From: Porpolomopsis calyptriformis
Lineage: Eukaryota; Basidiomycota; Agaricomycetes; Agaricales; Hygrophoraceae
Direction of reading: 5' to 3'
DNA: 64,000 nt
NCBI GenBank assembly: GCA_951640195.1
Contig: OX621171.1
Location: 434,001-498,000, forward strand
Positions within the stretch are counted from its first letter, which is position 1. The number at the start of each line of letters is the position of its first letter. This document shows positions 4,500 to 63,141 of this stretch, one piece after another. The translations under genes were made by a program, and so were the position numbers. Under the pieces are notes generated by a model. That model was not told the origin of the DNA and did no database searches. It saw only the letters and a program-made list of their open reading frames with translations.

Positions 4500-6410
4500 C
4501 AGCTCATCAAGTTCTGATGTGGCCATGTTGTAGAAGAGAGCGCGGATGTTAACAGCAGCCTTCTCCTTGGGACAATCTCATTGTAAGTGTCTGACTTCTC
4601 CACAGTTGAAACAACGGTGGACCTGATGCATCTTGTGGATGTCCATGGGCCTTCCCTGACTGCCATGGATGATCCCAGTGGGGACACAATGATCTTCAGA
4701 GGGTTGACCTTGAGGATGAGATGGGAGGGTCCGGGGTATGAATTGCAAGGAGGGGACAGCAGGGCGACGAGTCTGTTCCTGTTGATGGAACTATTCATGA
4801 AGTTGCCCAATGGCCATGGCCTTCTCAATGTAATTGGACCAAGTTGTGGGGAGAGGGGGATTGAGGTACATTTGGTGAATGATGTTGTGATGAATGTTCT
4901 TCTCAAAGATTCCGATTTTTTCTTTATCCTGGCAGCCGAGGCCAGCGAGTTTTGCCTTCATTTTATACTTGACAAGATACTCCACAATGAGGGATGATCC
5001 TTGCATCATGGTCTTGATCTCTTCTCATGCGCGCTGTTCTGAGGTAGTGTCTTTGAAAGCTCTGTCAAGACCAAGCTTGAAGTTTGCCCAGGAAGGGAAA
5101 GGGATCGCATTGCCTTGAGCATCAGTCTGGTCAAGAAAATCATTGATGAACTGCTGGGCCCAGATAGCGGCAGTCCCTTCCTTCATGTAGGAGAGGGTGA
5201 TGAGGGCACATTCCATGGCATCAGTGACACCTCAGCCAGCTTGGAATATGATAACCTGGTGGTACTAATCCCTGTAGGCCTTGGGGTCACCATTGAACGT
5301 GCTGGGTTCAGCAAGCTTGATTTTACTGGAGATAGCAGTAGCCATTGGAGGAGCAGGTGGGGGGCTGTTTGGGGGTGAGGGAAAAGGAGGTGTTGGCAGG
5401 TTTGGATCAGGTTCAGGGTTCGTATCGGGGAGGGGAGCGAGTGGCTCTCGAGGAGAAGGGCTTGGTTTTCTTGAGGAGAGAGAAGACAGAGTGGAAGGAA
5501 GCAGGTCTGAAGGTTTGGGTTCTGGTTCAAATTCCACAGATGCGATCTGTTGCTTTCCCTGGGTGGTAGGTTGCGGGAAAGGTGATTCAACTGGTGGAGG
5601 AGGGGTTTGTCGAGGTTAGAGACCTAGGAAAGAAAATGAGACTGGAGTCTGAGGGTTTGGAGGCGTGAAGGATGCTGATGTGAGCAGAGTGATGGGAGGT
5701 AGAAGAGGGGGAAGGAATTGCAACAAGAAGGGCAAGTGGATCTCGAGGTGATCCTCAGGCGCATCTTCATACTTGAGTTCCTCTTCGGGTTTCGAAGTGC
5801 TGTACAAGGGTCTTCGTGAAGGATGAGACGTGGTGATTTAGTGGTCAAGTACAAGATGGACTTCTCATACATCTTGGGTTCCATGTCATCGAAAGATGTA
5901 ATGACAGGGACAGTAGCTCATTCTGTGAGATGATGGGGACGATGAATGTGAATGCAAACTTGAAGGTGGGTGACTGGCTCTACTTCAAGGAGTGTTGCTG
6001 GGTTGCACGGGTCTTCAATCAGGGATGAAGGGGCAGTATCAAAAGATTCCTTGGATGAGGACGATGAAGGGGACAAAGGTGGGGATGGGGCGAGGTCAGG
6101 TTCAGAGAATTTGTCAGCCAACAGGTTGAGCTGTTCCATGAGGGAATCGAGCTCGAGTGGTGACAAGTCTAGTGCAGCTGCAGCAATCAGATGTTCATTG
6201 CTGATGAGCTTAGATGTCAAGGCCTGGTGGGGTTCAGGGTTGGTGAGAGCATAGGGCAGGGGTGGCGATGGAGAGCGTGAGGCCGGAGTGGTGGTCGAAT
6301 TGAATACCATGCAGGGATGCCAGAGTCACCTGTGGTTTTCCAATTGAAAGAGGATGGCCTTGCAGGGGAGTCCGGGTTGAGATTCCAAGGCAATCGCTCA
6401 GCTAGCATGG
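4500..6410 (-). pseudogene. Element F Gag, decayed
   Basis: The minus-strand coding runs from near 6408. It includes an N-terminal helical region (6310-5918, with a LELDSLMEQLNLLADKF stretch), a proline-rich linker (5537-5340), the capsid start motif KIKLAEPSTFNGDPKAYRD (about 5340-5265), the capsid body (5216-4791) and a zinc knuckle CFNCGEVRHLQ near 4600 that is interrupted by a stop. A TGA near 5917 lies where CGA is plausible. Gag would form the particle shell and bind RNA; this copy cannot be translated in full. Confidence 0.8.
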
Positions 6411-6574
6411 TAGCAGAGATGATCAGATGAATCTTGACCAGGGACTGTTGCAGAGAAAAGCAGAGGGGGAGGAGAGTTTCAATCTTCTGTTAAGGCACAG
6501 GGGTCTCCTGGTCAGCTTAGAGTGCTCAACAGAAAGAACCAAGATCTCAGCTAGAAGCTAAGGGGGGGTGTCTT

Positions 6575-6832
6575 TGTTGAGATCAAAACTAAGGAGTACA
6601 AACTCTAACTACACTACTTATCTAATCTGAGTTTGAATAGTACAACTCAACTGCAATCCATGGAATGGCTGACTCAGCTACTGCGCAACTGTGGATGGTG
6701 TCATCACTGACTAATAGCGAAAACCCCTGTAATCTACAAGGTAACAAATGACAAAGGAAGGTGGTGGGGGGATAAGATAAGATTAGAAAGGTTGCGATAA
6801 GATAAAAACAAAAACGAGGACACATTATAACA
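6575..6832 (-). repeat. Element F 5' LTR (258 bp)
   Basis: It begins TGTTGAG and ends TTATAACA on the plus strand, so the ends are TG...CA, and it lies directly outside the gag leader of F in the expected position. No second LTR of this family is present in the window, so the borders rest on the TG/CA ends and position only. Confidence 0.65.
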
Positions 6833-6993
6833 CTTTAGCCTTGGAACTGCCTTCAGGAATCCTGCACGCGCTCAAATAATTGACCAAGTCACCTGAGAAA
6901 AGGCTTCCAGTATATGAAATCAATTTTGCACTGTGGTAAAGTTACTTGCCTTTATTATCTACCCAACCCTGATCTGGATGTTTGGAAGCTATG
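6833..6993 (+). pseudogene. Unrecognised gene, 5' piece split by element D
   Basis: This short stretch between F and D has a plausible plus-strand frame (about 6843-6940, including ARAQIIDQVT and YEINFALW) followed by a GT that may open an intron. Its coding continues beyond D at 15137, judged by the matching 5-bp target duplication. I do not recognise the family. Confidence 0.35.
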
Positions 6994-7250
6994 TGTTACA
7001 TCCCAGTTCCGACCAACTCCGATGAATTCTGATGAACTCTGATAACTCCAACAACTCCGAACACTCCGTACTTTTCACATGTTTCCTACTTATGACATCC
7101 TCTGTCATCACTATGTCTCAGATATAATTATCTAGCAGGTATATAAGTACTGTGTTTTTTCCCCTGTATCTGTAGACAGAATATTGACTAAGTCCTGTCA
7201 TTTATTTAACTCTGATCTCCAAAATCAACTCCAAAACTTCAGACCTAACA
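6994..7250 (+). repeat. Element D 5' LTR
   Basis: TGTTACATCC...CTAACA, 257 bp. A TATA box (TATATAAG) lies at 7140-7147, and about 30 bp downstream (7170) begins CTGTAGACAGAATAT, the likely start of the transcript and the self-primer. Confidence 0.95.
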
Positions 7251-7267
7251 GTATATTCTGTCTACAG
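7170..7267 (+). promoter_or_regulatory. Element D self-primer and primer-binding site
   Basis: CTGTAGACAGAATAT at 7170-7184 in the LTR is an exact reverse complement of ATATTCTGTCTACAG at 7253-7267, which starts two bases after the LTR. No tRNA-type site beginning TGG is seen there. In Tf1-like elements the first bases of the mRNA fold back on the PBS and prime reverse transcription. The 30-bp distance from the TATA box to the LTR copy supports the same arrangement. Confidence 0.8.
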
Positions 7268-7282
7268 CTCGGGTTTTTATTC

Positions 7283-8512
7283 ATGATGACACAACGCACT
7301 CTCGAACGTTTCACGGGATTTTCAACTAGAAGTCGATTATCTCTGACCAACTCTGAAACAAGTCCTGTGTCTCCAACTACACGTATATCTGAAAGGCTCC
7401 CTACTGCTTTTCATGATTGAGAAAATCCGTTACAACCCGTAACTCCACAGACTACTCAAGGTCAAGCATCAACTTCAGTTGAAGAGACACCTCAAGTCCA
7501 GCCAGCTCAGGAAGCTCCGGAACAGGAGACAGCTGAAGAGAGATTGATCATGGCTTTTCAAAATATTGCCACCATCGCTCAAGCTTCTTCTGGAGCTAAA
7601 CCCACAAAATCTAAAGTCCGAGAGCCTGATCCTTTCGACGGCTCTAATCCAATGAAACTCTGACCTTTCCTAATTCAACTTCAATTGAATTTCAAGGATA
7701 GGCCTTCTGCGTTTACTTCCGATGAAGCTAAGGTCAATTATGCTATGTCATTTCTGAAGGGAATGGCGTTATCTTTATTCGAACCTTACCTTTTGGAGAC
7801 TATTCCTAACCCTCTGTTGTTCCTCTCGGACTTCTCGGAGTTCTGCTCCGAGTTACAGGACCAATTTGGACCTTTGGATCCAATAGGAACTGCCGAAGCG
7901 GAATTGGAATCTTTGAAGATGTTCGATAATCAACAGATCACCAAATATATTGTGCACTTCAATAGGCTAGCAGTTCAAGTCCAATGGGACGTCACAGCAC
8001 TGCGGCATATCTTTTACTGTGGTCTTCCAGATCGAATCAAGGATCAAATGTCTCAAGTCAGAAAACCAGCCACATTGGTAGCTATGAAGGAGTTAGCTCA
8101 AACAATTAATGCTAGGTATTGGGAACATAAAGGAGAGCTTAAGTGGGACTCCAGTCATGCTCCAGCACCTCCGACGAATGCTCCTAAACCACCTTCAACT
8201 CCAATGACACCTTCTACTTTCAAGAAAACTCCTATGAAATCCACTCCGACTACCTCAACTCCGAAGCGTCCTGACCTCTCTGATAAACTCGGAAAAGACA
8301 GAAAGCTTACTCCAGCTGAACGAAAACATCATTTGGATAATAACTTGTGTATGTTTTGTGGATCCCCAGGTTATATGGCAAAGGAATGTCCAAAGTCTGG
8401 TTCCTCTGCTTCAAAGAAGGCTTCTGGATGTGCCACTACTGTCACCGAACCATCCACTCAGGAATCCCCTACTCCTATTCCGAGTGCCCCTCCAGCTGCT
8501 CCAGAAAAATAG
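7283..8512 (+). pseudogene. Element D Gag
   Basis: One frame of 409 codons from the ATG at 7283 to the TAG at 8510-8512, broken only by two TGA codons (7418-7420 and 7661-7663), both in contexts where CGA (Arg) is expected. The capsid part spans about 7620-8150. A zinc knuckle CMFCGSPGYMAKEC lies at 8349-8390, with Tyr at the position normally His (CAT to TAT would explain it). A Pro/Thr/Ser-rich tail follows. Pol is in the -1 frame at the gag stop, where the sequence CCAGAAAAATAG offers a short A run for slippage. Confidence 0.9.
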
Positions 8513-9638
8513 GAGGCAGTCCGCATGAGACGCAGAATGTGGACTGGGTTGAAACCGTTCCTGTGTCTTCTATTGTAAAGCTCAACGCTTCCATTCCTTG
8601 TTCTGATTCCTTTCTAATTACTTTATTTATTGACTCATTATCTATTCTGACTCTTATCAATTCAGGATCCACACACTGTTTCTTGGACTTTGATTTTGTT
8701 CACCGAAACAAGCTCAAAACATCTCCACTTCCTCCGAAGCAACTCCAATTATTTGATGGATCTCAAGGGAGAACCATTGATGCGGGAGTTATCCTCCCTG
8801 TCTGATTTCCGTCTGGAGAAACTCTAGATATTGAGTTTTTGGTCACTCCGTTGGATGCATCATGTTCTGCTGTTCTTGGATTCAACTGGCTTACCCGCTA
8901 CAATCCATTGATTGACTGGGTTACAAGCAGTATTTCATTCGGGACACCAAAACCGATGTATTCGTCTTCGTCGTCGACACCCATGCCCTCCGAGGCAACT
9001 CTGCTTGACCCTCCAGCTCCGACTCCAACTCCGACTGCACTTCCTCCTGTGTCCATTATTTCGGCAGCTACATTTGTACATGCTAGCAAGCAAGAAGGAT
9101 CTCAATCATTTGTTCTTCAAACTGCTGATATTTCAAAAGCGTGTTCTGTCGACATCTCCAATGTTCCTCTGGACCCTACATTTTATGCAAAAGTTCCTCC
9201 AGAATATCATGACTATGCTGATGTTTTCAGTGAAGGAAAATCTAAACGTCTTCCTCCTCATCATTATAGCGATCACCATATTGATCTAGAGGAAGGTACG
9301 ACACCTCCCTGGGACGCATCTATTCTCTTTCTGTTGCGGAACAAGAAGCCCTTTGTATATTCTTGGATGAGCACCTTAGAAAAGGTTGGATACATTCCTC
9401 CGGATCTCCGGGCGGTGCTCCAATCATTTTCATCCACAAGAAAGATGATTCCTTATGTTTATGTGTGGACTATCGAGGCATCAATAAAATCACCAAGAAA
9501 GATTGTTACCCACTTCCGCTCATCTCTGATCTCCTGGACCATGCCAGTAAAGGTCGTATCTACACCAAAATTGATCTGTGAATTGGATACTTCAATGTAC
9601 GAATCGCGGAAGGGGATGAATGGAAAACCACTTTCCAT
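8512..9638 (+). pseudogene. Element D Pol, protease and N-terminal reverse transcriptase
   Basis: The protease motif reads LINSGSTHCFLD (about 8655-8690), with Asn replacing the catalytic Asp of D-S/T-G, a G-to-A change. LGFNWLTRYNPLIDW (8876-8920) is the conserved C-terminal protease stretch. The RT start (9181 on) contains a frame shift near 9300, and then an IFIHKKD stretch, the VDYRGIN motif, and YTKIDL followed by TGA at about 9580 (Arg expected). The frame is then cut at 9643 by E1 and resumes at 11352. Confidence 0.88.
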
Positions 9639-9643
9639 ACCAG

Positions 9644-9854
9644 TGTCACAACTGTAGTTGCAAGTCTTTTCGTCAATCACAAGGCAGGCCTTGGAGCTTA
9701 ATAAGTCTAGTAGGATGTAGAAGAAAGTCCTGACAGGGACATCCTCGTAAAGGGTGATGATTCCTCCTGAGTTAAGTTTTACTTCTACAAAGAAGTTGTT
9801 CTGCGAGTTAAATCCATTGCGTGCCTCTGCTGAGAGTTTAGGGAATATGGGCAT
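9644..9854 (-). CDS. Start of Gag frame inside the E-type LTR (70 codons, open-ended)
   Basis: From the ATG at 9854 an uninterrupted minus-strand frame (starting MPIFPKLSAEARNG and ending KTCNYSCD) runs to the LTR border at 9644, where it would continue into the lost internal region. The same frame is kept in E2 (20395-20605, start codon changed to ATA) and E3 (45273-45063), with only a few substitutions. It lies about 140 bp downstream of a TATA box. A gag that starts in R/U5 of the LTR is known from some LTR elements (Ty1 for example). Function as Gag is inferred from position; no capsid motif is visible in this short part. Confidence 0.6.
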
Positions 9855-9993
9855 GAACGATTGGCTTAGTAGTTATGGGTTTATGTTTCTCTTTCCTTGT
9901 TCTGATGGAAAAGAAGTCTGATGATTCTGATTGCGTTCGTGCTACTACAAGTAATCTCACAGGAGGACGAAGTGATGATCCGCTTCGCCCTCA

Positions 9994-10314
9994 GGGTTTA
10001 TATAGTATTTCTAAAATAGGAGTCACTATGAGTCAGCTTCCGCAGTCACCCCATTTTCTATTGTTCACAGCCTTCGGTTTAAGGTTTGCCATTGTTCTTA
10101 GTCATACTGCGGAAGGCTGTGTTGTTTTGATGACTCAACTCTATCGGGCATAGCCTTCCGCAGCATCAGGCTGTGCTGTCTCATGACTGGTTCCTATTGT
10201 TCTTCTAGTCATGAGATCGCCGCTGTTTCTATCTCTTGTCCGGCGTATTGGGTTTCTCTTCTTTGACTGAGGAACCTCCTTTTGGTCTTCCCTTTGTGTC
10301 TGAGCATATAAAAG
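9994..10314. promoter_or_regulatory. Divergent promoter region within E1
   Basis: Two TATA boxes face away from each other: TATATAAA on the minus strand (10004-9997) and TATAAAAG on the plus strand (10307-10314). Between them are three copies of a CCTTCCGCAG-like motif (CTTCCGCAG 10037-10045, inverted CTGCGGAAGGC 10107-10117, GCCTTCCGCAG 10153-10163) and two TGAGTCA/TGACTCA palindromes (10029-10035 and 10131-10137) of the kind bound by Gcn4/AP-1-type bZIP factors. Binding is inferred from motif resemblance only. Confidence 0.6.
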
Positions 10315-10361
10315 GTGTGGGGTTGTATCCCTACGCTTCAGTTCAATCCTTGTCAATCATC

Positions 10362-11196
10362 ATGACTCCTTCCCACCAAGGCCACTACATCCGGTTCTTC
10401 AAGCAGTCTGGAGTGGTGCACCACACCGCTCCTGTCTTTCTCGATTGTGATTCTTTCCACTACTACCTTCAGCGCACCCCCTCCGAAGCCGACCTCTGCT
10501 GGTCCTCCTTCTCTTGTTTTGCTTGCGGTGGCAAGCATAAGGTCAGAAAGTGTCCATATGTTCGCTGGCCAATCCAGCATGTTTGTGGCTTGATGGAGGA
10601 TCCGCTTGGTATGTATCTTGTTTTGTCTTTGTTAGTCTATGTTTATTGATAATAGGCTTTCCTTCTTTTAGCTTGGGATGACGACGCCCCTCCCCCTACC
10701 TCCCAGCTCCCTTTGGAGGAGCAGGTTAATTGGGGGTCCGACAAGTGGGCTGACTCTCTTCCTTCCGTCAAGAAGGAGGCAGTTGACTGGGCTGCCAGTC
10801 CCCCTTTCCGTCCTTGGACCCCTGGTCCATTAAGTCCTTTATCTAGTGGTAATACCCTTAACTCTCTTGGTCTCTTCGTAGTTGCTGATTTCTTTGCCTT
10901 TTTTAGTTGAAGATTTGTCGTTGTCATTGACTAACGTCAACGTCAAGATCGAGGAGGAAGAAGTTCCTCCCAGTTTGTTGTGGAGTCCCACCAACGATTG
11001 GTTGGGTGAGGAAGCGAGAAAGATAGCGATGGGTTTCGTCGAAGGGAAGGCTGCTGAGTTGCAGGCCTCTGGTGGTGACACCAATGGGGCAATTTACTGG
11101 GGTAATAAGTTGGCCGCATTAGATGGTCAAGTAGTCTCGAGTTTCATAGAGTTCTTGAGGGACAGTATGGTGCAAGAGATTGCCAAGACGGACTAG
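10362..11196 (+). CDS. LTR-encoded three-exon gene, near-CCHC finger protein (237 aa)
   Basis: Exons 10362-10608, 10672-10848 and 10907-11196 join through two GT-AG introns (63 and 58 bp) with matching phase into 238 codons ending in TAG. The ATG lies 55 bp after a TATA box, and an AATAAA (11254-11259) lies 58 bp after the stop. The product has an N-terminal domain with a finger at about residues 54-66 (CFACGGKHKVRKC, spacing C-x2-C-x3-H-x4-C, one residue shorter than a classical zinc knuckle) and a further CP pair nearby. An acidic Trp/Pro-rich middle follows, then a predicted helical C-terminus (about 160-237). I do not recognise the family. In E2 the last exon is mostly preserved while upstream exons are decayed. 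The strand is antisense to the element's own transcript. Confidence 0.8.
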
Positions 11197-11253
11197 TTTA
11201 GATAGTTAGTCGGACATGGACTCCCCCTCTTTGTACAAATAGTTTCCGCTGCC

Positions 11254-11259
11254 AATAAA
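11254..11259 (+). terminator. Polyadenylation signal of the LTR-encoded gene
   Basis: AATAAA, 58 bp downstream of the stop codon of the spliced gene in E1 and still inside the LTR. Confidence 0.5.
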
Positions 11260-11351
11260 GACAGCCCCCCTTCCAAAGAGAACAGGCAAAGAAAAGAAAA
11301 GAATGAAGAAAAGAGATGAATTTTAAGAGAGTGAATGCCAATTTCATGACA

Positions 11352-13906
11352 ACCAGATATGGTGCTTTCGAATTCTTGGTTATGCCCTTAGGTCTATACA
11401 ATGCCCATTCAACATTTCAATGTTTCATGAATGAGATTTTCTCCGACCTCTCTGATATCTCTGTTGTAGTATATCTTGACGATATCCTTATCTACTCAAT
11501 AATGTTGCGGATCACCGGAGACATGTCCGTGAGGTACTCCAAAGACTCCGACTTAACAGTCTTTTTGGAAAACTGGAGAAATGTTTCTTTCATCAAGATA
11601 CGATTGAATACCTTGGATTTATCCTTTCCCCTGGTGGAATTACCATGGACCCTGCCAAAGTTCAAATTATCCTGGATTGGCTGGAACCACAGAAAATCAA
11701 GGATGTCCAGTTGTTCTTGGGTTTTGGAAATTTCTATAGGCGTTTTATCAATAACTACTTGGGATTGGTATCTCTGCTTATGCAACTGACCTGGAAAAAT
11801 GTTCCGTGGAATTTCGATACTCAATGCAAATTCGCATTTGAATCCCTGAAGCAGGCCTTCACTTCCACTCCTGTTCTTGTCAATTTCACTCCAGGATCAC
11901 GTCTGGTAGTAGAAACAGATGCCTCTGACTATGCCATAGCAGGCATCTTATCAACTTACACTGAGGATGAATCATTACATCCCATCGCATTCTACTCTCA
12001 GACTTTAACTCCACTGGAGTTGAACTATGATATCCATGACAAGGAGCTATTAGCCATTCACGATAGTTTTTACAACTGGCGACATTACCTTGAAGGCTCT
12101 TCTGACCCAGTCAATGTTGTCACTGATCACAAGAATTTGGTGTATTTTTCTACAACCAAACTCCTGTCATGGCGTCAGGCTTATTGGTCTGAATTTTTAT
12201 TGGGCTTTAATCTTGTTATTCATTTTCGCCCCAGAAAACTCAGAGCAAAACCGGACTTCTTAACACGTTGATATGACATAAATCCTAAAGAGGGAGATAG
12301 CGACTACGCCAGTATCAATCCTCAGAATCTCCGACCGGTTTTTACCTCAGAGCAACTGGCTTCATCCCTACGAGCTTTATCCTTATTGGATCCAGTGTTA
12401 AAAGCTGCATTCATTATGGATGTAGACTCCCTCCACTCGAAAATTCGGAGTTCACTTCGTGATGATCCAGTGGCTATGGAGCACCTAGAGGTTGTGGAGT
12501 TCAACTCCGATGCCAACTCCGATCTCCGATGGACTGTCGACACCTCTGGTTTCCTTCGTCACGATAGTCGTATCTATGTGCCCAACGTAGATGACTTATG
12601 ACTTCAAATTTTGCGTATGAAGCATGATTATCCAATTGCTGGTCATTTTGGTCAAAACAAAACGCTTGAATTGATCCAATGAGAATACACATGGCCAGAA
12701 CTCCGGACCTTTGTAAAGGATTACTGTAACTCCTGTACTATGTGCGCTAGGTCCAAAGTCCCTCGCCATCGACCTTATGGTTTGCTCAAGCAACTCCCAA
12801 TTCCGGAGAAGCCTTGGAATTCCATCTCCATGGATTTCATCAAGCAACTCCCTAACTCCGATGAATTCTCCACTATTCTTGTTGTTGTTGATCGATTCTC
12901 CAAACAAGCTATTTTCATACCAACCTTTGACACCATCACTGCTCCTCAACTCACTCAACTTTTCCTTGTCCATGTATTCTCCAAACATGGAGTTCCCTCA
13001 CATGTCACCTGTGACTGAGGCTCGGAGTTCGTCTCCCGCTTTTTCCAGTCATTGGGTAAAGTCCTTGACATGTGTCTCCATTTTACCTCCGGGTATCATC
13101 CGGAAGGTGACGGACAAACTGAATGAGTTAATCAAACCTTGGAGCAATACCTACGGATGTATTGTAACTATCAACAGGACAACTGGTCCCATCTCCTGGC
13201 TATTGCAGAATTTGCATATAACAATGCTCTGAACGCTACTACTGGGATATCCCCTTTTTTCGCTAACAAGGGTTATCATCCAAATATTTCAGTACACCCT
13301 GAGCGTGATATTACTTCCGTTCGAGCCAGAGAACTAGCTGTTGATTTGGACGAACTCCACTCCAAACTCCGAAATACCATCTCCGAAGCTCAAAAGTGTT
13401 ATCAGCACTATGCTGACTTAAAGCGCATTCCAGCCCCTGATTTCGAAATAGGAACTCAAGCCTTCGTAAAGGCCAAGTTTTTCTGAACTACCAGACCCTC
13501 CAAGAAACTCTCGGAGAAGAACTTAGGTCCTTTCAAGGTTATTGCCCAAGTTAGAACCCATTCCTATACTCTCCGTTTGCCTAGTTCTATGAAAGCTATC
13601 CATCCAGTCTTTCATGTATCACAGTTGGAACCAGCCTCACCGAATACGATTCTGAACCAAGTACAACCTCCGCTTCCTCCGGTAATCATAGATGGAGAAC
13701 CGGAGTTCGAGATCTCCGAAATCCTAGACTCAAAAATTGATAATAGGCGTCGCTTATGCAAATTATTGTATTTGGTTCGTTGGGAAGGCTATGAAGGTAC
13801 CAACAAAGAAACCTCATGGATCCTTGCTACTGAGCTAGGACATGCTTCGGAACTCGTCTCGGAGTTCCACTCTGCTTATCTGGAGAAACCCAGACCTGAC
13901 TATTGA
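11352..13906 (+). pseudogene. Element D Pol, RT to chromodomain
   Basis: After E1 the RT resumes ([14 protein letters not shown], then [11 protein letters not shown] with an intact YLDD at about 11470-11500). RNase H follows (ETDASDYAIAGILS at 11910-11950, TDHKNLVYF about 12120), then integrase (an H-x3-H region near 12620-12650, CNSCTMCARSK, MDFIKQLP, and CD followed by a TGA at 13016-13018), and the C-terminal chromodomain (FEISEILDSKI to LATELGHA, about 13705-13850) ending at 13906. TGA codons at 12598, 12680, 13016 and 13484 break the frame; most fit CGA precursors. The chromodomain would direct integration to histone-marked chromatin. Confidence 0.9.
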
Positions 13907-13953
13907 TTTCTTTCACTCTTATTTATCCTTTTCTTTGATTCAAAAATCATTAT

Positions 13954-14710
13954 CTATTCCATTGAAGGGACTATTTCTACATCCCTTATGGGCATTTCCT
14001 CCTCCGACATCTCTGACTCCTCTGGCTCCTCTGAACTTTCTCCGCTTTCTCCACTATCCTTGTAATCTCCATCTAACAACTCCTCAGTCCTTTCCATGGA
14101 CTCCCTCATTCTCTTCATCTCCATTCTCATCTTCTTCATCTCCCCCCGAACTCCTTGCAACTCCTCCCTCAGATTCGCCATCTCCAACAACTCCGCATTT
14201 CCCCATTGCCTTTTTCCTCCATGCTCCAGTTCCTCTGTGGTACTCTGGATGCGTTTCCTTTTTGCTGGTTCTTCCCCAACCCAGCATTTGGCCTTCACCT
14301 GTTGACAGGTGGTACAACTCCAGGCCTTCCCCTGTCCGGTTAGCCACACACACCCCTCCACGCTCCCTTTCCTAATACAAGGCTCGCACGGAGCCCTCCT
14401 AAACAAACTCTGGTCAACTCCGGAATAAAGTGGATAAAAAAGAAAATACTTACGGCTGTCTGATCAAGGCCTCTTGCCCTGATCTTTCCTCTGCCGCCTG
14501 CTCCGCTGTTCAAGCCGCCTCCTTCGCCCTCCTTGCTGCCTCCCTTTTTGCAGATTTGGCCGCCCATCGCTCCTCTGCCAACCGACGCTCTTGCTCCACC
14601 CTCTGGGCCTCCTCTGCTTGCTCCACTTCCTTGCACTCTCGTTGTTCTTCGTTTTCGAGTAAGACTTGCAGTTCTGCAAGTTGGGCTTGGATCTCGTTGC
14701 GAGTGGGCAT
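13954..14710 (-). pseudogene. Antisense spliced gene in element D (coiled coil plus Cys cluster, 233 codons)
   Basis: On the minus strand the ATG at 14710 opens exon 1 (14710-14454). A 55-bp GT-AG intron (14453-14399) follows, and exon 2 (14398-13954) ends in TAG; the phases match. One TGA at 14512-14510 interrupts exon 1 where CGA is likely. The protein has an N-terminal coiled coil (residues about 5-75, starting with an IQAQLAELQVLL stretch), a cysteine cluster at about 90-122 (CEPC, GC, SCTTC, KC) resembling fungal Zn-cluster arrangements, a second coiled coil with repeated EM/KRM, and an acidic tail. A TATA box lies about 30 bp upstream. Remnants occur in both other D-family copies. Cellular role unknown; a DNA- or RNA-binding regulator of the element is a guess. 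Confidence 0.75.
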
Positions 14711-14740
14711 TGTTAATGAAGAAGAGTGATTCACCGGACC

Positions 14741-14750
14741 TTATTATATA
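14741..14750 (-). promoter_or_regulatory. TATA box of the antisense gene in element D
   Basis: TATATAATAA on the minus strand, 31-40 bp before the ATG. The related fragment at 41797-42430 keeps ATATATAATA in the same place, so the promoter is shared by the family. Confidence 0.6.
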
Positions 14751-14879
14751 TGTTCTGATTTCAAACTCCAGCAATTCTGCGAAATCCACCACATTCTGAA
14801 ACTCCGATTTCTTGGTCATTACCAAACATGGTCAAGTCCAATATGCGGTCTCGAGGGCTCGCCCTTAAGAGGGAGATAC

Positions 14880-15136
14880 TGTTACATCCTAGTTCCGACC
14901 AACTCTGATGAATTCCAATGAACTCCGATAACTCCAACAACTCCGAACACTCTGTACTTTTCACATGTTTCCTACTTATGACGTCCTCTGTTGTCACTAT
15001 GTCTCAGATATAATTATCTAGCAGGTATATAAGTACTGCATTTTTTCCCCTGTATCTGTAGACAGAATATCGACTAAGTCCCATCGTTTATTTAACTCCG
15101 ATCTCCGAAATCAACTCCGAAACTTCAGACCTAACA
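14880..15136 (+). repeat. Element D 3' LTR with polypurine tract just upstream
   Basis: 257 bp, same length as the 5' LTR and colinear with it. The purine run AAGAGGGAGA (14867-14876) precedes it by three bases, as expected for plus-strand DNA priming. Confidence 0.95.
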
Positions 15137-18909: not shown

Positions 18910-20605
18910 TGTCATGAAATTGGCATTCACTCTCTTAAAATTCCATTCTTTTCCTCTCTTTTCTATACCTGTTCTTTTTTGGAAAGGGGCTGTCTTTATT
19001 GGCAGCAGACTATTTGTACAAGAGGGGGAGGTCCATGTCTGACTAACTATTTAAACTAGTCCGTCTTGGCAATCTCCTGCACCATACTATCCCTCAAGAA
19101 CTCTATGAAACTCAAAACTACTTGACTATCTAATGCGGCCAACTTATTTCCCCAATAGATTGCCCCATTGGTGTCTCCACCAGAGGCCTGCAACTCAGCA
19201 GCCTTCCCTTCAACAAAACACATTGCAATCTTTCTTGCTTCCTCACCCAACCAATCATTAGTGGGACTCTACAACAAACTAGGGGGAACTTCTTCTTCCT
19301 CGATCTTGACGTTGACGTTGGTCAATGACATCGATAAATCTTCCACTAAGAAATGAGGAGTCAATAAATATGAAAGAGAGTGAGAGAGTTTAGAGCATTA
19401 CTACTAGATAAAGGACTTAATGGACTAGGGGTCCAAGGACAGAAAGGGGGACTGGCAGCCCAGTGCTCAGGCTTGGGATCAACAAAGAGGAGAGGGTGCC
19501 CCCAATGATCAGAACTCCAATCAACTTGCTCCTCCAAAGGGAGCTGGGAAATAGGGGGAGGGGTGTTGTTATCCCAAGCTAAGAAAGGGAAAGCCTATTA
19601 TCAATAAACACAGACTAATAAAGACAAAACAAAGTACTCACCAAGCGGATCCTCTATTAGGCCACAAGCATGCTGGATTGGCTAGCGAATGAACAGACAC
19701 TTCTTGGCTTTGTGCTTGCCACCACAAGCGAAGCAGGAGAAAGAAGACCAACAAAGGTCAGTGTCAGAAGGGATACACTGAAGGTAGTAATGAAAAGAAT
19801 CACAATCAAGAAAGACAGGGGCAGTGCGGTGCACCACCCCAGACTGCTTGAAGAATCAAACATAATGGCCTTAGTGGGAGGCAGTCATGATGATTGACAA
19901 GGATTGAACTGAAGCATAGGGATACAACTCCACACTTTTTATATGTCCACAAACAAAGGGAGGACCAAAAGGAGGTTCCTCAGTCAAAGAAGAGAAACCT
20001 GATATGCCGGACAAGAGATAGAAACAACGGCAATCTCATGACTAGAGGAACAATAGGAACCAGTCATGAGACAACACAGCCCAATGCTGTGGAAGGCTAT
20101 GCCCAATAGAATTGAGTCATCAGAAGCACACAGCCTTCTGCAGTATGACTAGGAACAATGGCAAACCTTAATTGAAGGCTGTGAACAATAGAAAATGGGG
20201 TGACTGTGGAGGCTGACTCATAATAACTCCTATTTTAGAAATACTATATAAACCCTGAGGGCAAACTGGATCATCACTTCATCCACCTGTGAGATTACTT
20301 GTAGTAGCACAAATGCAATCAGAATTATCAGACTGCTTTTCCATTAGAACAAGAAAAGAGAAACATAAACTCACAACTATTGAGCTGACTGTTCATACCT
20401 ATATTCCCTAAACTCTCAGCAGAGGCACACAACGGATTCAACCCACAACAGAACTTCTTTGTAGAAGTCAAACTTAACATGGAAGGAATCATTACCCTTT
20501 ATGAAGATGTTCCTGTTAGAACCTTTTTCTATATCCTCTTAGACCTATTAAGCTCCAAGGCCTGCCTTGTGATCAATGAAAAGACTTGCAACTACAGTTG
20601 TGACA
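18910..20605 (+). mobile_element. E2: second 1.7-kb solo LTR
   Basis: TGTCATGAAATTGG...GTTGTGACA, 1696 bp, flanked by TTGTC on both sides (18905-18909 and 20606-20610). It is E1 in inverted orientation, so its own sense strand is plus. It splits the polymerase gene of G between RT and RNase H. Mismatches to E1 are mainly C/T and G/A, making it more decayed than E1. The gag start frame survives at 20395-20605 without its ATG. Confidence 0.9.
19056..19900 (-). pseudogene. E2 copy of the LTR-encoded spliced gene
   Basis: The last exon is retained (19330-19056, with GEEARKIAMCFVEG and the terminal QEIAKTD followed by a stop). Upstream a TGG codon has become TAG near 19272. The first exon at about 19900-19655 still shows most of the finger region in degraded form. 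The intact gene is the copy in E1. Confidence 0.7.
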
Positions 20606-42559: not shown

Positions 42560-43280
42560 GGTAGATGAGCAGCATTTGCTGGCTACAAAGACTAGGTGAG
42601 TACTGGCCACCCATTCACACTTATATCAGTGAACAGCCTCACAGTTGTTTACTACTCACAGGGCTGATATGATGAGGCTAAAGCCCTCTACAAGTGGGCA
42701 TTGGCTGGCTCCGAGACTATCTGGGTGCTGACCACCCATCCACCCTTATGTCAGTTTGCAACCTCGCAGGTGTTTACTACTCACAAGGACTATACGATGA
42801 GGCCGAAGCCCTCTACAAGTGGGCATTGGCTAGCTCCAAGACCATCTGGGTGCTAACCACCTATCTACCCTTATGTTGGTTTGCAACCTTGCAGGTGTTT
42901 ACCACTCTCAAGGATGATATGACGAGGATGAAGCCCTCCATAAGTGGGCTGGGTGCTGACTGCCTATCCACTCTTACATCAGTTTGCAACCTTGTAGGTG
43001 TTTACCACTTACAAAGATAATATGACCAGGCTGAAGCCCTCTATAAGTGGGCATTGGCTGGCTCTGAGACCATCTAGGTGCTAACTGCCCATCTACCCTT
43101 ACATTGGTTTGCAACCTTGCAGGCGTTTACCACTCACAAGGACTATATGATGAGGCTGAGACCCTCTCTGCACAGGCATTAGTTGGCTGTGATGCCATCT
43201 AGGTGCTGACCACCCATCCACATTTACGTCAGTTCACAACCTTGCAGGTGCTTGCTGGTTACAAGGACAATACAATGAGG
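42560..43280 (+). pseudogene. TPR-repeat gene remnant (tandem 42-residue repeats)
   Basis: About six 126-bp tandem repeats encode a 42-residue TPR of kinesin-light-chain type: LGADHPSTLMSVCNLAGVY, YYSQGLYDEAEALYKWALA. The frame is best near 42694-43020; elsewhere stops and frame shifts break it, and one repeat is internally shortened near 42945. Such repeats form the C-terminal sensor of many fungal NLR-like (NB-ARC/NACHT-TPR) proteins, but no nucleotide-binding domain is present here, so that identity is an inference. Confidence 0.75.
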
Positions 43281-43454
43281 CTAAGTTATGCAAGTTTACA
43301 CAAGTATGTATATAACACATTTATTTAACCGAGCAGAAGCCTTACATGCTTCACCCAGGTTGTGCAGTTGATTATTAGCCTGGGAAAAGGGTTGTTGGAA
43401 GCTTAGCTTGAGTACTTAAGTGGCATTCTACATCAGCTACTACATATCCAATAT

Positions 43455-45062: not shown

Positions 45063-45369
45063 TGTCACAACTGTAGTTGCAAGTCTTTTCATTGATCACA
45101 AGGCAGGCCTTGGAGCTTAATAGGTCTAAGAGGATATAGAAAAAGGTTCTGACAGGAACGTCTTCATAAAGGGTAATGATTCCTTCCATGTTAAGTTTGA
45201 CTTCTACAAAGAAGTTCTGTTGTGGGTTGAATCCATTGCGTGCCTCTGCTGAGAGTTTAGGGAATATAGGCATGAACAGTCAGCTCAATAGTTGTGAGTT
45301 TATGTTTCTCTTTTCTTGTTCTGATGGAAAAGAAGTCTGATGATTCTGATTGCATTCGTGCTACTACAA
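45063..45369 (-). mobile_element. E3: truncated E-type LTR
   Basis: Starts TGTCACAAC as E1 and matches it to GCTACTACAA (45369), then diverges, so only the U5/R end survives. The gag start frame (ATG at 45273) is open to the border. It interrupts the hAT gene. Confidence 0.85.
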
Positions 45370-56663: not shown

Positions 56664-56668
56664 GTGTT

Positions 56669-57080
56669 TGTTATAAACCAGTTGTTCGGAACGCGTTTTA
56701 CTTCGGTTGTTCTGTCCCAAGAGATATAGAGGATGGTTCCAAGTCCTTGTTATGAGTAGGCTAACGAGGAATCAGACTTAAGGTCTGATACATACGGAAG
56801 TACTCTTTATATACTGACTACTTATCTGTGTGAGTCAGTGCGACATAACATGAGGTAGAGATAAGGATGAGTCATTGTGATCGATGACGAATCATAAAGG
56901 GGTTGAAACATAACGGAAATGAAGTGTGTCCGCATATGGGTAAAGTAGTGGGGAATCCCTAGGGAATCCCGGAGAAAGGTAATGGGGAATCCCGATAACA
57001 AATAGGGGGGAATCCCAAGATAAGAGATAGGTTTGCATACGATAAGATAAAGAAAATGAAGGAAAATTACGACCGTGACA
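56669..57080 (-). repeat. Element A 3' LTR
   Basis: 412 bp, TGTTATAAAC...CCGTGACA. It differs from the other LTR at four sites, all CG in one copy and CA in the other. Confidence 0.97.
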
Positions 57081-57115
57081 TACACCTCGGCTTTTAAAGA
57101 AATTCGTCCCGAATT

Positions 57116-57853
57116 TCAAACTTGGGCGGTGTCGGTCGTTTCGTCTTCCGAGGCCTGAGTCGGGATTTCCTCGGTGGCGGGGGCCTCGATGGCCACCGAG
57201 GGGGAAGCAGCGGATCTGGCTTCCGAAGTCGCTTCAACGGGGGAGGGGGCTCGGACTGTCGCGACATCGTCGTCGTCGATCGGGTATTCTAGGTCGACAT
57301 TGATGGGGTATTCGACCGTTCTCCCGTACTCGATTAGAGTCTCCGTCATCGCGAGGTCTCGTTGGGCTCGGAGGAAATCCTCCCTGGTGAGCCGTTCAGA
57401 CCGACAACTTTCTTCTACGAGCTTGACGATGATGGCGCGGGTGGTGACGTCGTAGCAATCGACCCACGTTCATTTCTTCTGACATTGGAGCTCCCAAACT
57501 TTCAACTCACTTTCATCCCAGCGATTCTTCCAAAACAATGCGCTTTTCTCTGACGCCTTGAGTTCAGCTTGCAGAACTTCGCATTCTTGACGAAGTTCAC
57601 GGTTCCAATTGCTGACGCTGTTACTGTGAACCGTGAGGCGGGAGATGGTGACGGCGGGGTCTTCGGGGGGAGGGGTTTGAATGGTGTGGAAGTCTTCCGC
57701 ACGTGCGCGAGCTTGTCGACGTAGTTGTCGAGCAGAGGAAGCAGAGGTGGAGGGGCCAGGAGTGGGGGAGCGAATGGCGGACGAGGGGATCTGTCCAGAA
57801 TGTCGGATGGCGACTTGAGGAGAGGGGGATCGTGTAGACCATGTAGCGGGCAT
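57116..57853 (-). CDS. Element A third ORF (downstream of Pol, internal TGA)
   Basis: ATG at 57853 opens a frame with a Ser/Pro/basic N-terminus (ATWSTRSPSPQVA), a coiled coil at about residues 75-125 (WNRELRQECEVLQAELKASE) and a TGA at 57472-57470. The same frame goes on for 117 codons (SERLTREDFLRAQRDLAM, acidic DDDD, Ala/Pro/Thr-rich end at 57116). The full reading is about 245 codons. B and C have the same gene with the same TGA, so the arrangement is a family trait. I do not recognise the family. Position and coiled coil are compatible with a structural or accessory protein; function unknown. Confidence 0.6.
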
Positions 57854-58020
57854 GGTAAAGTTGTTAAGGTGTTTTGGCTTAGCGGTCTTGAGTCGTTGTT
57901 GAGGGGTGCGTAATTTGAATCGTGAAGGGAAGTAGAGACGTCCAGCAGTTTATAAGGAGTGGTTCTAAAAATAGAGGTCAATTCTTGGCAGACGGGATGA
58001 TGACAAACGAATGAATAGAA

Positions 58021-58200
58021 TCAAGTCGCCGTTTGAATTGAGTCTTCGTACGTCTTCACAATTTCCTTGGCGTGTTGTAAAATGTTCGATCGATCTTCCC
58101 AAGTGGCTTCTTCGATCGGATAGCCTTTCCATTTGACCAAGTATTTTTGGCGTCGTTTAGCTCCGGAATGTTGCAGTATAGATTCGACCTCGTATTCTTC
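58021..58200 (-). pseudogene. Element A chromodomain, cut off from Pol
   Basis: After a TAA at 58203-58201 the same frame continues EEYEVESILQHSG, KYLVKWKGYPIEEATWED, ending in TGA at 58023-58021. B and C have Glu codons (GAG, GAA) in place of the TAA, so a G-to-T change in A detached the chromodomain. Chromodomains target integration to modified histones, so new insertions by this copy would be mistargeted, if made at all. Confidence 0.85.
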
Positions 58201-60981
58201 TTAGTTTTCGATCAGATCAGGGGGAGGTCGTGATGTGTCGATGATATCAGGGTGGAGTAATTCATTTCCGACGTTGGGTCTCAGGAGTGAAACGTGAAAG
58301 ACTGGGTGCAGTCTCCATGTTCTGGGAATGTCGATCAGATAAGCAAGGTCCGATATCTTTTTCAAGACCTTGAATGGTCCGGTCTGTCGATTGTCAAGTT
58401 TCTTCGAGGGTCGTGTCGTCTTGATATTCTTGGTGTCCAACCAGACTAGATCTCCTTCTTCGTAGGAGGGTGAAGGTTTCCGTTTACGATCGGCGTATTT
58501 CTTCATTGACTCCGTTGTCTTTGATAAGGATCGTTCGGCGTTTTGCTGTGCACGTGTAAGACGTTCGTGGAAGGTATTTGCTGCGGGCACGTTGCTTTGA
58601 TCCGGAATGATTGTGGGAAGATGAGGATGACGTCCGTATTCCATATAGAACGGCGATTGTGAAGTGGCAGAGTGTTGCCGATTATTGTAGGCAAATTCCG
58701 CAGAAGCAAGCCATTCTGACCAGTCGTCCTGCATGAAGTTAGTATAGAAACGCAAGTAAACTTCGAGTTCTTGATTGGTGCGTTCCGTTTGACCATCTGT
58801 CTGAGGATGATACGCAGTGGAGAGACCGGAGATGATTCCTAAGGAGTTATTGAGGGCTTCTGTGAATTTGGACGCAAATTGCACTCCACGATCGGATATA
58901 ACCTTTTGGGGCCATCCATGATGTTTCCAGATGTGATTCCGAAAGAGTTTTGCAGCACCTTCTGATGAAAGATTAGAAGTTGTTGGAATGAAATGAGCAC
59001 GTTTAGTGAAACGATCGACAACAACCATTACAGCATCATAGCCTTGTGACTTGGGGAGTTCGACAATGAGATCGACGGTAATTTCCTTCCATGGTTCCGT
59101 AGAGGGGGGTATGGGTTGGAGTAGTCCTGACGGCTTCGAGGGGAAGTTCTTGTTTTGTTGACAAGCGGGGCAGGATCGAACGTAGTTGGTGATGTCTTGT
59201 AAGGCACCATCCCAAATAAAGTTACGAAGGACGAGTTCCTTCATCTTCTCAATGCCAGGGTGGCCAGCGTGGGGGTAGGCGTGGGACAGTCGTATAATAT
59301 CTGTGCGCAAAGATACTTCCTCCGGCACTACTATCCAACCTTCAACATCGCGTACAAGCCCATCAGCTTGGGTCCAAGCGAGTGAGGCATCCTCGAGTTT
59401 ATCTTGGATCTTCTGTGGGAGTGGGATTTTGAACCGTAATCTAGAGAGAAAGCTTGAATTCGACAACTTGACAATTGAATTTATCCATCGGTCGCGCGCT
59501 ATCAGAACTTCGTTCTCCACGTCGGCTTCGACGCCAGGTAAGTAATCTGGGCGCCTAGACAGGCCGTCGGCCTTGTTCTTCCTCCCTGGAACGTATTCAA
59601 TCTTGAACCCGAATCTGGACAGATACTCAGACCAACGAGTTTGGCGATTTGATAGGCGAAGATTCTTTGAAAAGTATCGCAAGGCCAAACTGTCTGTCCT
59701 GATGAGAATATTGTGTCTCGCTCCTTTGAGGAGATGACGCCATTGTTTAAAGGAATCAATGATCGCCAGGAGTTCTAGATCGTGGGTAGGATAGTTCTTT
59801 TTGGCAGGAGAGGTAGATCTTGAGTGATAGCCGACAGGTTTCCAATGTCTGTCATGAAGTTGGGAGAGTATCCCCGCGATTCCAATGATAGAGGCATCAG
59901 TTTCTAAGCAATAGGGGAGATCGCGATCAGGAATATGAAGAACGGGCGCGTTCGTTAAAAGGGACTTGACGTTGTCGAAGGCTTCTTGTCTCCGAGGAGT
60001 CCATTCCCACACAGTTTCATTGTGCAAGAGTTCATAGAGAGGGGTAGCAACTCTGGAGAAATCCTTGATATATCTCCGCCAAAAGTTCGCACTGCCCAAG
60101 AAGGATTGGAGTTGTTTCACCGTTTCCGGAATTGGCCAAGACATGATAGCGTCGACTTTCTTCGGGTTGGTGGTGATTCGTCCTTTGGATAAGACGACTC
60201 CGAGATAAATGACTTCCTCCTTCTTGAACTGGCACTTGATGGGTTTACACGAGAGTCCGTGTTTCTTCATGATATTTAGAGTCTTGAAGGTCCAGTGTCG
60301 CAATTCCTGTAAATCATCTCCACAAACAAGCACGTCATCAATATAGATGAAAACATTTCCAGAGTCCAGGACTTCTTTGAATCTTGTGTCGATCATCCGT
60401 TGAAAGGTGGCTGGTGAGTTCCGCAAACCAAAGAACATGACAGTAGGTTCGAAGGCGCCTGCTTCAGTGATGAAAGCAGCTTTCCATTCGTCGCCTTCCT
60501 TGATCCTGACGTTGTTGAATCCCCATCGGATATCCATGACCGTGAATAGAGAAGCTGTTAGAAGTTTAGGTCGCTGGAGTATTTGATGAAGAAGAGGAAG
60601 GGGATAATGATCAGGAACCGTGTGTTCGTTGAGGTAGCGATAATCCTCGATAGGGCGTAAGCCAGCATTTTTACCTTTAGCGTTTACTTCTTCGGCTTTC
60701 TTTCCAAAGAAGAATGGAGAGACTTGTTTCGATTTGGAAACTCGTATTCGTCCAGTAGATAAGTTTTCGTCGATGAACTTGTGTAAGTGATCCATCTCAA
60801 GAGGGGACATTGCGTATTTCGTGCCTTTGACTGGCCTGAAGGTTTCATCCAGTTCTATGGCGTGGTCGAATTCCGAATGCGGTGGAAGGCGGTCGAAGGA
60901 TTCTTTGGCAAAGACACTAGAATAGTCTTTCCAGTATACCTCCAGTACAAACTTTCGCATATCTTCTTCCACCGTGCTGGC
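58201..60981 (-). CDS. Element A Pol: reverse transcriptase, RNase H, integrase
   Basis: An open frame of about 920 codons. The RT has FTVMDIRWGFNN (about residue 145), NSPATFQRM and FIYIDDVLV (catalytic YIDD about residue 220). RNase H starts YCLETDAS (about 358) and has RTDSLALRYF. The integrase has the H-x6-H/C-x2-C zinc part (HAYPHAGHPG, CPACQQNK, about 570-610), D in ITVDLIVELP, D in VISDRGVQF and E in TERTNQELEVY, and then a GPF-type module ending at LIEN. It is in the protease frame, separated by the TGA at 60984-60982. Start shown as the frame after that stop; the true product is likely a Gag-Pol fusion. Confidence 0.93.
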   Translation of the reverse strand, partial: ASTVEEDMRKFVLEVYWKDYSSVFAKESFDRLPPHSEFDHAIELDETFRPVKGTKYAMSPLEMDHLHKFIDENLSTGRIRVSKSKQVSPFFFGKKAEEVNAKGKNAGLRPIEDYRYLNEHTVPDHYPLPLLHQILQRPKLLTASLFTVMDIRWGFNNVRIKEGDEWKAAFITEAGAFEPTVMFFGLRNSPATFQRMIDTRFKEVLDSGNVFIYIDDVLVCGDDLQELRHWTFKTLNIMKKHGLSCKPIKCQFKKEEVIYLGVVLSKGRITTNPKKVDAIMSWPIPETVKQLQSFLGSANFWRRYIKDFSRVATPLYELLHNETVWEWTPRRQEAFDNVKSLLTNAPVLHIPDRDLPYCLETDASIIGIAGILSQLHDRHWKPVGYHSRSTSPAKKNYPTHDLELLAIIDSFKQWRHLLKGARHNILIRTDSLALRYFSKNLRLSNRQTRWSEYLSRFGFKIEYVPGRKNKADGLSRRPDYLPGVEADVENEVLIARDRWINSIVKLSNSSFLSRLRFKIPLPQKIQDKLEDASLAWTQADGLVRDVEGWIVVPEEVSLRTDIIRLSHAYPHAGHPGIEKMKELVLRNFIWDGALQDITNYVRSCPACQQNKNFPSKPSGLLQPIPPSTEPWKEITVDLIVELPKSQGYDAVMVVVDRFTKRAHFIPTTSNLSSEGAAKLFRNHIWKHHGWPQKVISDRGVQFASKFTEALNNSLGIISGLSTAYHPQTDGQTERTNQELEVYLRFYTNFMQDDWSEWLASAEFAYNNRQHSATSQSPFYMEYGRHPHLPTIIPDQSNVPAANTFHERLTRAQQNAERSLSKTTESMKKYADRKRKPSPSYEEGDLVWLDTKNIKTTRPSKKLDNRQTGPFKVLKKISDLAYLIDIPRTWRLHPVFHVSLLRPNVGNELLHPDIIDTSRPPPDLIEN

Positions 60982-61562
60982 TCAGGATTCATCCAACTTT
61001 GATACGCGTCGATTCATGGCCAGCGTGACCGATTCCATTCCCAGTGACTCCGCATCTTTCGCTATCCATCGTGGTAGAGGGAAATCTTTGCTATCCAGAG
61101 CCAGTGTTGCCTCTTTCCAATCGATGTTGGGGTTGTGCTTTTTGAGCCACGGGAAGCCGAGGATAATATCCGTCTTAGATCCAAGATCGGTCACTTCCAA
61201 TCGGATCCGTTCATTGTGTCCTCCAGGAGCCTCTAACCAAATATCAATATCGTTCTCGATGGGTCCACCTCGGTTTTCAGATCCATCGGCATTCCGTACG
61301 GGGATTGGGGTTTCCAATCGTGTTAAAGTAAAATTGTGGCGAGCTGTGAAAGATTCGTCCATGAAATTTCCAGAGGCTCCACTATCAACCAGAGCAGTGG
61401 CCGGGACACGTCGACCAGTGTCGGTAGCTTCAATCCAAACATCCAAAATGAGTCCGAGATTGCCTTCTTCAAGAGTACCAAGAATTCGAAATAAATTGCA
61501 TGGAGTGGTGGTACATTCTTGAGTAGATACGTCCGTAACAGTAGGCGAAGCATTCGGACTCT
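60982..61562 (-). CDS. Element A protease
   Basis: In the -1 frame relative to gag, the coding is open from the slippage site at about 61572 to the TGA at 60984-60982. ALVDSGASGNFMDESF carries the intact D-S-G of a retropepsin, and ILGFPWLKKHNPNIDWKEA is the conserved C-terminal block. There is no early Met, which fits expression by frameshifting from gag. It would cleave the polyprotein in the particle. Confidence 0.88.
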
Positions 61563-61575
61563 TTAAAAACCCTGT
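61563..61575 (-). promoter_or_regulatory. Gag-Pol frameshift site of element A
   Basis: Minus strand CAG GGT TTT TAA: the heptamer G GGT TTT fits X XXY YYZ, with the gag stop directly after it. The -1 frame continues TTA AAG AGT into the protease. B keeps GGGTTTTTGA and C has one more T. Confidence 0.65.
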
Positions 61576-62711: not shown

Positions 62712-63141
62712 ATTGGTAGATGTCGGTTGTTGTGGAGTTGTTGGAGCTGTTGGTGTTGGTGTGGGTGTCGCAGAGGAAAGTTGGGAGTAGAGGGAACCAT
62801 ATCGTCCTGGTGGGGTAGCAGTTCGTTGATGAACTGGTCTCGTTGCTGGTGCTGAAGATGAAGTGAAGAGTCCTCTTGTTCTCGATCGAGTCCGTGGTCC
62901 TAGAGAGGTAGGAGCAGGGGTAGGAGTAGCTAACGTTTCTTCAAGGACTGAAGAAAAGGATGGTTCTTGATCTCGAATTGTAGCTGAGAAAGTCGATCTT
63001 GAAAGAGGGTCTTCGTAATGTTCTTCAACGTCTGAGTTGTCGGTAGAAGCCAGGATGGAAGTAGGTAAGGGGCAAAGAGGTGATGTCGATGATCACAGTG
63101 ATGGGGATGTTTGGATAAGCAGGTGGGAGAGAACCAGAAGG

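Follow-up and report, generated by a model that had tools for sequence, protein, structure and literature searches.

How does a complete, intron-containing gene come to lie inside a long terminal repeat (LTR), reading against the element that owns it, and whom does such a gene serve? The question is raised by E1, a unit within the window, i.e., the whole 64,000-nt stretch analysed here (C9:434001–498000). In the initial annotation, E1 had been called an LTR on the basis of its TG...CA ends, its ACCAG duplication, and a second copy with its own duplication (TTGTC), and a full spliced gene had been predicted within it on the plus strand. The favoured overall reading, to which a probability of about 60% is assigned, is that E1 is the solo LTR left by a Gypsy element of the self-priming, Tf1/sushi-like type, that this LTR is a divergent two-gene unit, and that its antisense two-intron gene encodes a nuclear regulator of the element.

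The LTR unit and its parent element

The ends and both duplications are all present, and the window contains the following parts of the LTR family and its surroundings:

9639–9643, unstranded: target-site duplication ACCAG, left copy
9644–11351, minus strand (sense for the element, antisense for the gene): E1, a solo LTR from a Ty3/Gypsy chromodomain element, recognized by TG...CA ends, 41 full-length copies, paired LTRs, and gag–pol orientation
11352–11356, unstranded: target-site duplication ACCAG, right copy
6994–15136, plus strand: host element D, Gypsy-like and distinct from the family of E1, with 257-bp LTRs (93%), carrying the E1 insertion
18910–20605, minus strand (that of the gene): second LTR copy, 86% identity, with a GACAA duplication
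45063–45369, plus strand: truncated LTR fragment, first 307 bases

The LTR is 1.7 kb in length. GACAA flanks the second copy on both sides and equals TTGTC on the opposite strand; in this copy, the antisense gene has a stop at codon 6. The genome searched comprises 33.5 Mb in 17 contigs. In a DNA search with 40 of 293 candidates scored, 40 matches were full length and two others were pieces of a nested copy; the 40 together with the second window copy form the 41-copy set, which is biased toward well-kept copies, since 40 of its members are the best-scoring DNA matches. A less biased sample was drawn from the 23 further exact LTR starts listed for contig C1; it comprises 20 of these, of which 15 are full length. 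Four further loci, chosen for divergence or an odd frame, are excluded from both counts, and two of these (L048 and L049) contain several stops. E1 and the copy L009 represent a single insertion that enters the 41-copy set twice, since they have common flanks within a segmental duplication of 99% identity. This duplication, a side observation, pairs window positions 5200–14351 with C1:3653989–3663140 at 99–100% identity, gapless across the 7.7 kb directly compared, and contains host element D with E1 inside. Movement of E1 to the second site by element D was considered and rejected, as the flanks of the C1 copy outside D also match, which indicates a segmental duplication.

Among the 41 full-length copies, 30 are flanked by perfect 5-bp duplications, four by duplications with one mismatch, and three by none, while the remaining four are the LTRs of two complete elements with outer duplications TAGAT and CCGGA. 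The genome-wide search thus recovered complete elements bearing two such LTRs, and the identification of the unit as an LTR holds. One LTR copy is nested within another LTR of the same family (C4:375313–378722, duplication CTCAC). The LTR start occurs 254 times at no more than two mismatches (reversed-pattern control, 0), whereas junctions of the internal region with the LTR on the primer side number 16 at no more than three mismatches (control, 0), a count that diverged junctions may escape. On these figures, elements that retain an internal region account for about 32 of the LTRs, and the rest are solo or truncated. Of the approximately 254 known starts, 61 were scored for the gene.

On the strand opposite to the gene, the complete elements match the Pfam families Retrotrans_gag, RVP_2, RVT_1, RT_RNaseH, Integrase_H2C2, rve, SH3_Tf2-1, and Chromo. 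With two LTRs, a 5-bp duplication, the order gag–PR–RT–RH–IN, and a chromodomain, the parent element is an LTR retrotransposon, a Ty3/Gypsy chromovirus. In the complete elements, TTACCCCCTCCC, the reverse of the purine tract, adjoins the right end of the LTR on the gene strand, and the reverse of the primer site directly precedes the other LTR. Given these positions and the location of gag–pol on the opposite strand, the gene is antisense to gag–pol; the orientation first proposed from E1 alone is borne out by the purine tract, the primer site, and the strand of gag, protease, RT, RNase H, integrase, and chromodomain, which all agree. In each of the two complete elements examined, both LTRs contain the antisense gene, which is thus present twice per element.

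The class of the element is indicated by its predicted RNA start and sense promoter:

9964–9974, minus strand: predicted start of R, CACTTCGTCCT on the sense strand, an 11-nt complement to AGGACGAAGTG just after the 5' LTR
9998–10005, minus strand: TATA box of the sense promoter, the element's own, kept in 41 of 41 copies

The start of CACTTCGTCCT and the first base of the sense TATA box are 30 nt apart. The complement is exact on both sides within L018 and within L024; family-wide, 12 of 16 primer sites and 23 of 41 LTRs have the exact form, and most of the others are one base off. We take this arrangement to be that of self-priming Tf1-like elements. The likeness to Tf1/sushi-type chromodomain Gypsy elements lies in the complement after the 5' LTR, the chromodomain, and the Pfam family SH3_Tf2-1, and the placement is made by these features; to our knowledge, Tf1 has no gene in its LTR. 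The element would therefore belong to the self-priming Tf1/sushi-like class by its primer site, the RNA start being predicted from sequence. Self-priming itself is described in PMC2864245. Such an arrangement would place R near 9974, and thus the antisense gene would lie wholly in U3.

Among the 143 of 919 candidates scored, integrase copies in the genome number 15 at 86–100% identity, below which identity falls to 51%. In the protein database, the integrase reaches no more than 65% identity among the best 120 of 5185 matches, where the named relatives are from Ceratobasidium, Calocera, Amanita, Dentipellis, and one ascomycete, Podosphaera. Since identity stays at or below 65% among these best 120 of 5185, although the database contains fungal retroelement proteins, the family is poorly sampled there, and not finding the LTR gene in it is weak evidence of absence. 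The named relatives, the short introns, and the chromodomain Gypsy elements point to a fungal host, probably a basidiomycete.

Two coding regions in one LTR and the selection acting on them

The antisense gene has the following parts:

10307–10313, plus strand: TATA box TATAAAA, kept in 41 of 41 copies
10362–10608, plus strand: exon 1, residues 1–82 plus one base, with the Cys/His cluster
10609–10671, plus strand: intron 1, 63 nt in E1 and 62–64 nt across the full-length copies, with GT...AG ends in all 41
10672–10848, plus strand: exon 2, the fast-evolving, Trp/Pro-rich, acidic middle part
10849–10906, plus strand: intron 2, 58 nt in E1 and 53–58 nt across the full-length copies, with GT...AG ends in all 41
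10907–11196, plus strand: exon 3 with the TAG stop, acidic and conserved more strongly than the other parts, with a low-confidence prediction of helices
11254–11259, plus strand: AATAAA signal, AATAAA in 37 of 41 copies

The plus-strand gene of 237 residues, with its TATA box, ATG, two GT–AG introns, TAG, and AATAAA, is found as initially annotated, and so is the unbroken frame of E1, for which splicing as predicted gives 714 nt and 237 residues. The spliced length is a multiple of three in all 41 full-length copies (714 nt in 35, 711 nt in six), and the gene is intact from ATG to stop in 24 and broken in 17. In the less biased C1 sample of 15 full-length copies, 14 are in frame (one is 701 nt) and all 15 retain GT...AG introns, with the gene intact in four and broken in 11. 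Distinct alignment gaps number two in the exons, both of 3 nt, 11 of 1–4 nt in the introns, 21 in the 3' flank, and eight, all of 1 nt, in the stretch 9644–10249. The possibility that the gene is a small mobile unit in its own right, nested in the LTR, was also rejected, as its position is identical across the 41 copies.

In pairwise comparisons, omega is 0.123–0.147 in the four dS classes of at least 0.1, whereas the two classes of closest pairs give 0.268 and 0.439. Within the protein, it is 0.110 for residues 1–83, 0.309 for residues 84–141, and 0.080 for residues 142–237. In a branch test, parsimony changes were placed on a FastTree tree of the copies, with the mutation spectrum of the noncoding LTR (CpG included) as the yardstick, in which the noncoding bases are taken as neutral and may themselves be constrained. 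At codon positions 1/2/3, internal branches carry 50/30/182 changes and terminal branches 147/78/245, giving omega-like ratios of 0.218 and 0.514, respectively, against 0.60–1.80 in control frames (12 tests across 9855–10361), of which the lowest is 0.60. Stops were gained once on internal branches against 14.0 expected and 18 times on terminal branches against 19.3 expected. Substitution among the genomic copies is thus non-neutral, in pairwise omega as well as in the internal ratio relative to the controls. Internal branches being constrained and terminal branches relaxed, selection would act mainly during transposition and not on single copies. Judged by this codon pattern, the predicted gene is a real two-intron protein gene that is kept along the transposing lineage and decays in individual copies.

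The same figures bear on three rival explanations. That the frame is a chance or decaying ORF, so that antisense RNA alone, or nothing, matters, might be suggested by the lack of a database homologue; the internal codon-position pattern and the scarcity of exon frameshifts (0 of 41 copies; one of 15 in the C1 sample) against free indels in the introns make this practically negligible, while a dual role of RNA and protein is possible. Capture of a host gene by the LTR, with the host now maintaining it at some solo loci, is a very improbable origin, even though intact solo copies exist and the introns would suggest capture from DNA and not from spliced mRNA, as terminal constraint is relaxed, with stops gained there at nearly the expected number, and only close copies occur among the matches listed (150 of 568 candidates scored). 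The selection pattern does not fit general domestication, and the initial suggestion that solo copies may persist as domesticated genes is unsupported as a rule. A copy-number or self-limiting factor, for which Ty1 p22 offers a comparison, could be produced from every solo LTR, so that its dose would count past insertions; the excess of LTR starts over primer-side junctions, many with an intact gene (24 of 41 and four of 15), would suit such a factor. However, a trans-acting brake on the element is not expected to be preserved intact by element-lineage selection, and a brake does not fit the constraint on internal branches; this rival is quite unlikely. Preservation along transposing lineages argues for a protein that helps the element.

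The 41 copies contain 20 in-frame stops, of which 17 are C-to-T or G-to-A changes and 12 are changes of TGG to TAG or TGA. An origin of these decay stops from CpG was rejected, with CpG at just one of the 20 stop codons. As a separate observation, C-to-T change at CpG on terminal branches is approximately 10 times that at other C (0.109 vs. 0.010), a methylation- or RIP-like mark.

The control for the selection test also revealed a three-base pattern in a supposedly noncoding part of the LTR, which led to a sense frame, ORF0:

9645–9854, minus strand: LTR part of ORF0 (70 aa), starting in U5, recognized by codon pattern and copies
L053:90–590: full ORF0, 167 aa where open, running through the primer site and overlapping gag by 101 nt in the +1 frame

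From 9854 to the LTR edge, the 70 codons are free of indels and stops in all 41 copies, with ATA as the first codon of one copy, and this part is open in 14 of 15 copies of the less biased sample. Its codon-position changes are 10/9/59 on internal and 43/15/74 on terminal branches, with omega-like ratios of 0.131 and 0.499. Among the 16 junction copies, six are open across 140 codons and 10 carry a stop or frame shift; the pattern holds in the leader (7/3/13 internal, 11/10/27 terminal) but does not hold clearly in the overlap with gag (3/2/7 internal, 15/3/14 terminal). ORF0 has no Pfam match. By its codon pattern, it is a second predicted coding region of the LTR, missed in the initial annotation. 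Translation of gag behind ORF0 would need frameshifting, leaky scanning, or re-initiation. Gag of Ty1, a Copia-type element, starts in U5; it resembles ORF0 in that the frame begins in the LTR and crosses the primer site, whereas ORF0 is a frame separate from gag, overlapping it in +1.

With the antisense gene and the sense ORF0 in one LTR, the LTR would be a divergent two-gene unit, the two TATA boxes of which lie about 0.3 kb apart. The region between them holds two further sites:

10029–10035, unstranded: TGAGTCA, kept in 40 of 41 copies
10131–10137, unstranded: TGACTCA, kept in 40 of 41 copies

These TGASTCA sites are presumably Gcn4/AP-1-like. By base counting, approximately 0.04 such sites are expected per 0.3 kb, a figure for a motif picked after looking; the pair makes Gcn4-type (starvation) control possible.

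The predicted protein and its proposed role

The N-terminal part (residues 1–82) contains a Cys/His cluster formed by H20, C29, H33, C46, C52, C55, H59, C64, H73, and C75, each kept in 39–41 of the 41 copies. The C-x2-C-x3-H-x4-C finger named in the initial annotation is among them, as C52-x2-C55-x3-H59-x4-C64. It is one residue short of a Gag-type zinc knuckle (C-x2-C-x4-H-x4-C), and no knuckle model appears among the Pfam matches to E 10. Residues 83–237 are acidic (D+E 26 vs. K+R 11), with a Pro/Trp-rich middle. In AlphaFold2, exons 1 and 3 gave poor models with mean pLDDT values of 45 and 53, the second mostly helical; the proposed structure prediction of the finger domain therefore yielded a model, but one of poor confidence.

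Homology searches gave consistent negatives, each within its scope. The whole protein has no Pfam match; for members of exons 1 and 3, the best Pfam value is 0.052, and zf-CHY, appearing in six of 31 members, is not trusted. The TRP28 family (PF04195) is likewise absent from the weak Pfam matches of the exons. PDB searches with the exon profiles and ORF0 reached best E values of 3, 0.68, and 0.14, which are not credible. In a large protein database, none of 392 candidates for the whole protein matched at E 10, and 28 candidates for the exon-1 profile included no relative; among viral contigs, no match to the exon-3 profile was confirmed. Since Pfam, the PDB, and the protein database offer no homologue, the proposed regulator role is read from composition and position.

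The preferred mechanism can be set out as follows. Leftward, the sense promoter, with its TATA box near 10000, would produce the genomic RNA, in which the first AUG, in U5, would open ORF0 before gag. Rightward, the promoter with the TATA box at 10307 would produce an antisense mRNA wholly in U3, which would be spliced of its two introns and translated into the 237-residue protein. As the gene runs antisense to the genomic RNA, that RNA would carry the introns in reverse and unspliced, and from known LTR biology they would persist through reverse transcription and hence retrotransposition. Similarly, the U3 location would cause the gene to be copied to both LTRs and retained in solo LTRs. The protein is most likely a nuclear, element-encoded regulator that would promote expression of the element or its escape from silencing, and its Cys/His-rich N-terminal part, joined to the acidic, Trp-rich remainder, may bind zinc and nucleic acid. 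The narrower assignment as a positive transcriptional regulator is tentative, at slightly under even odds. That the LTR is a self-contained cassette, whose solo copies would seed autonomous, intron-containing regulator genes with a dose that records past insertions and outlives gag–pol, is possible but doubtful.

The Trp residues bear on another rival, in which the antisense U3 RNA would form dsRNA with the genomic RNA and the same transcript would encode a silencing suppressor that binds Argonaute through Trp-Gly motifs. The protein has 10 Trp in 237 residues, including five in the fast-evolving middle part, where the sole non-stop change is W122 to L (eight of 41 copies), and WG pairs occur at 103 and 206. 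However, the Gly after W103 is poorly kept (<90%), the Trp/acid pattern also suits an activation domain, and the WG motif is short; both the activation-domain and the Argonaute-hook labels are putative, taken from sequence patterns. An anti-silencing factor of this kind is therefore unlikely.

Comparison with known elements and the surrounding window

In the case of mouse mammary tumour virus, the accessory gene sag lies in U3 of the LTR in the sense direction; the U3 location is common to both, whereas the present gene is antisense to gag–pol and belongs to a different virus group. HBZ of HTLV-1 is a spliced antisense regulator that resembles the present gene in its direction and its LTR promoter but has its coding sequence mostly in the internal region, so that a solo LTR would not hold it. 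An antisense promoter in the 3' LTR of HTLV-1 is noted in PMC7264820.

Among fungal Gypsy elements, the Ty3/Gypsy element Boty of Botrytis cinerea offers a comparable setting in that it carries an extra antisense gene, brtn, reportedly first published by Zhao et al. in 2011. In PMC7264820 and PMC8365987, brtn is given as a gene of unknown function, and the former places it between pol and the 3' LTR; this described position, not in the LTR, sets it apart from the present gene. Plant aORFs (Grande gene23, RIRE2, and Retand TRP28) encode an antisense accessory protein in most copies, the Grande gene has its own promoter, and a regulatory role of plant aORFs is suspected, according to PMC7264820 and PMC11963269, in the main text of which the word intron does not occur. 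These plant aORFs sit in the internal region, whereas the present gene lies within the LTR. As a conserved and apparently constrained antisense ORF, judged from the copies, the present gene would count among the antisense accessory genes typified by aORF-3R and brtn. What sets the gene apart from the antisense accessory genes described in plants and in Boty, which lie between pol and the 3' LTR, is its position wholly within the LTR. No report of a spliced antisense gene wholly inside an LTR was found in the literature searched, with subscription journals largely outside it.

The usual view of solo LTRs is that they are regulatory debris, but many copies of this family may still be complete genes with promoter, introns, and poly-A signal. 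The locus would furthermore show in nature how a gene can keep its introns through reverse transcription, by an orientation antisense to the genomic RNA, and the selection indicates that the protein is of consequence to the element. It is now testable whether a factor encoded in an LTR drives, shields, or limits the family to which it belongs. Meanwhile, the locus serves as a warning that masking LTRs as noncoding repeats can conceal conserved protein genes in both orientations.

Elsewhere in the window, positions 42572–43282 are internally repetitive, with overlapping direct repeats. In addition, a Gypsy element of another family occupies positions 56668–63565, the 413-bp LTRs of which are 99% identical; its pol and gag frames are long, at 919 and 382 aa, respectively.
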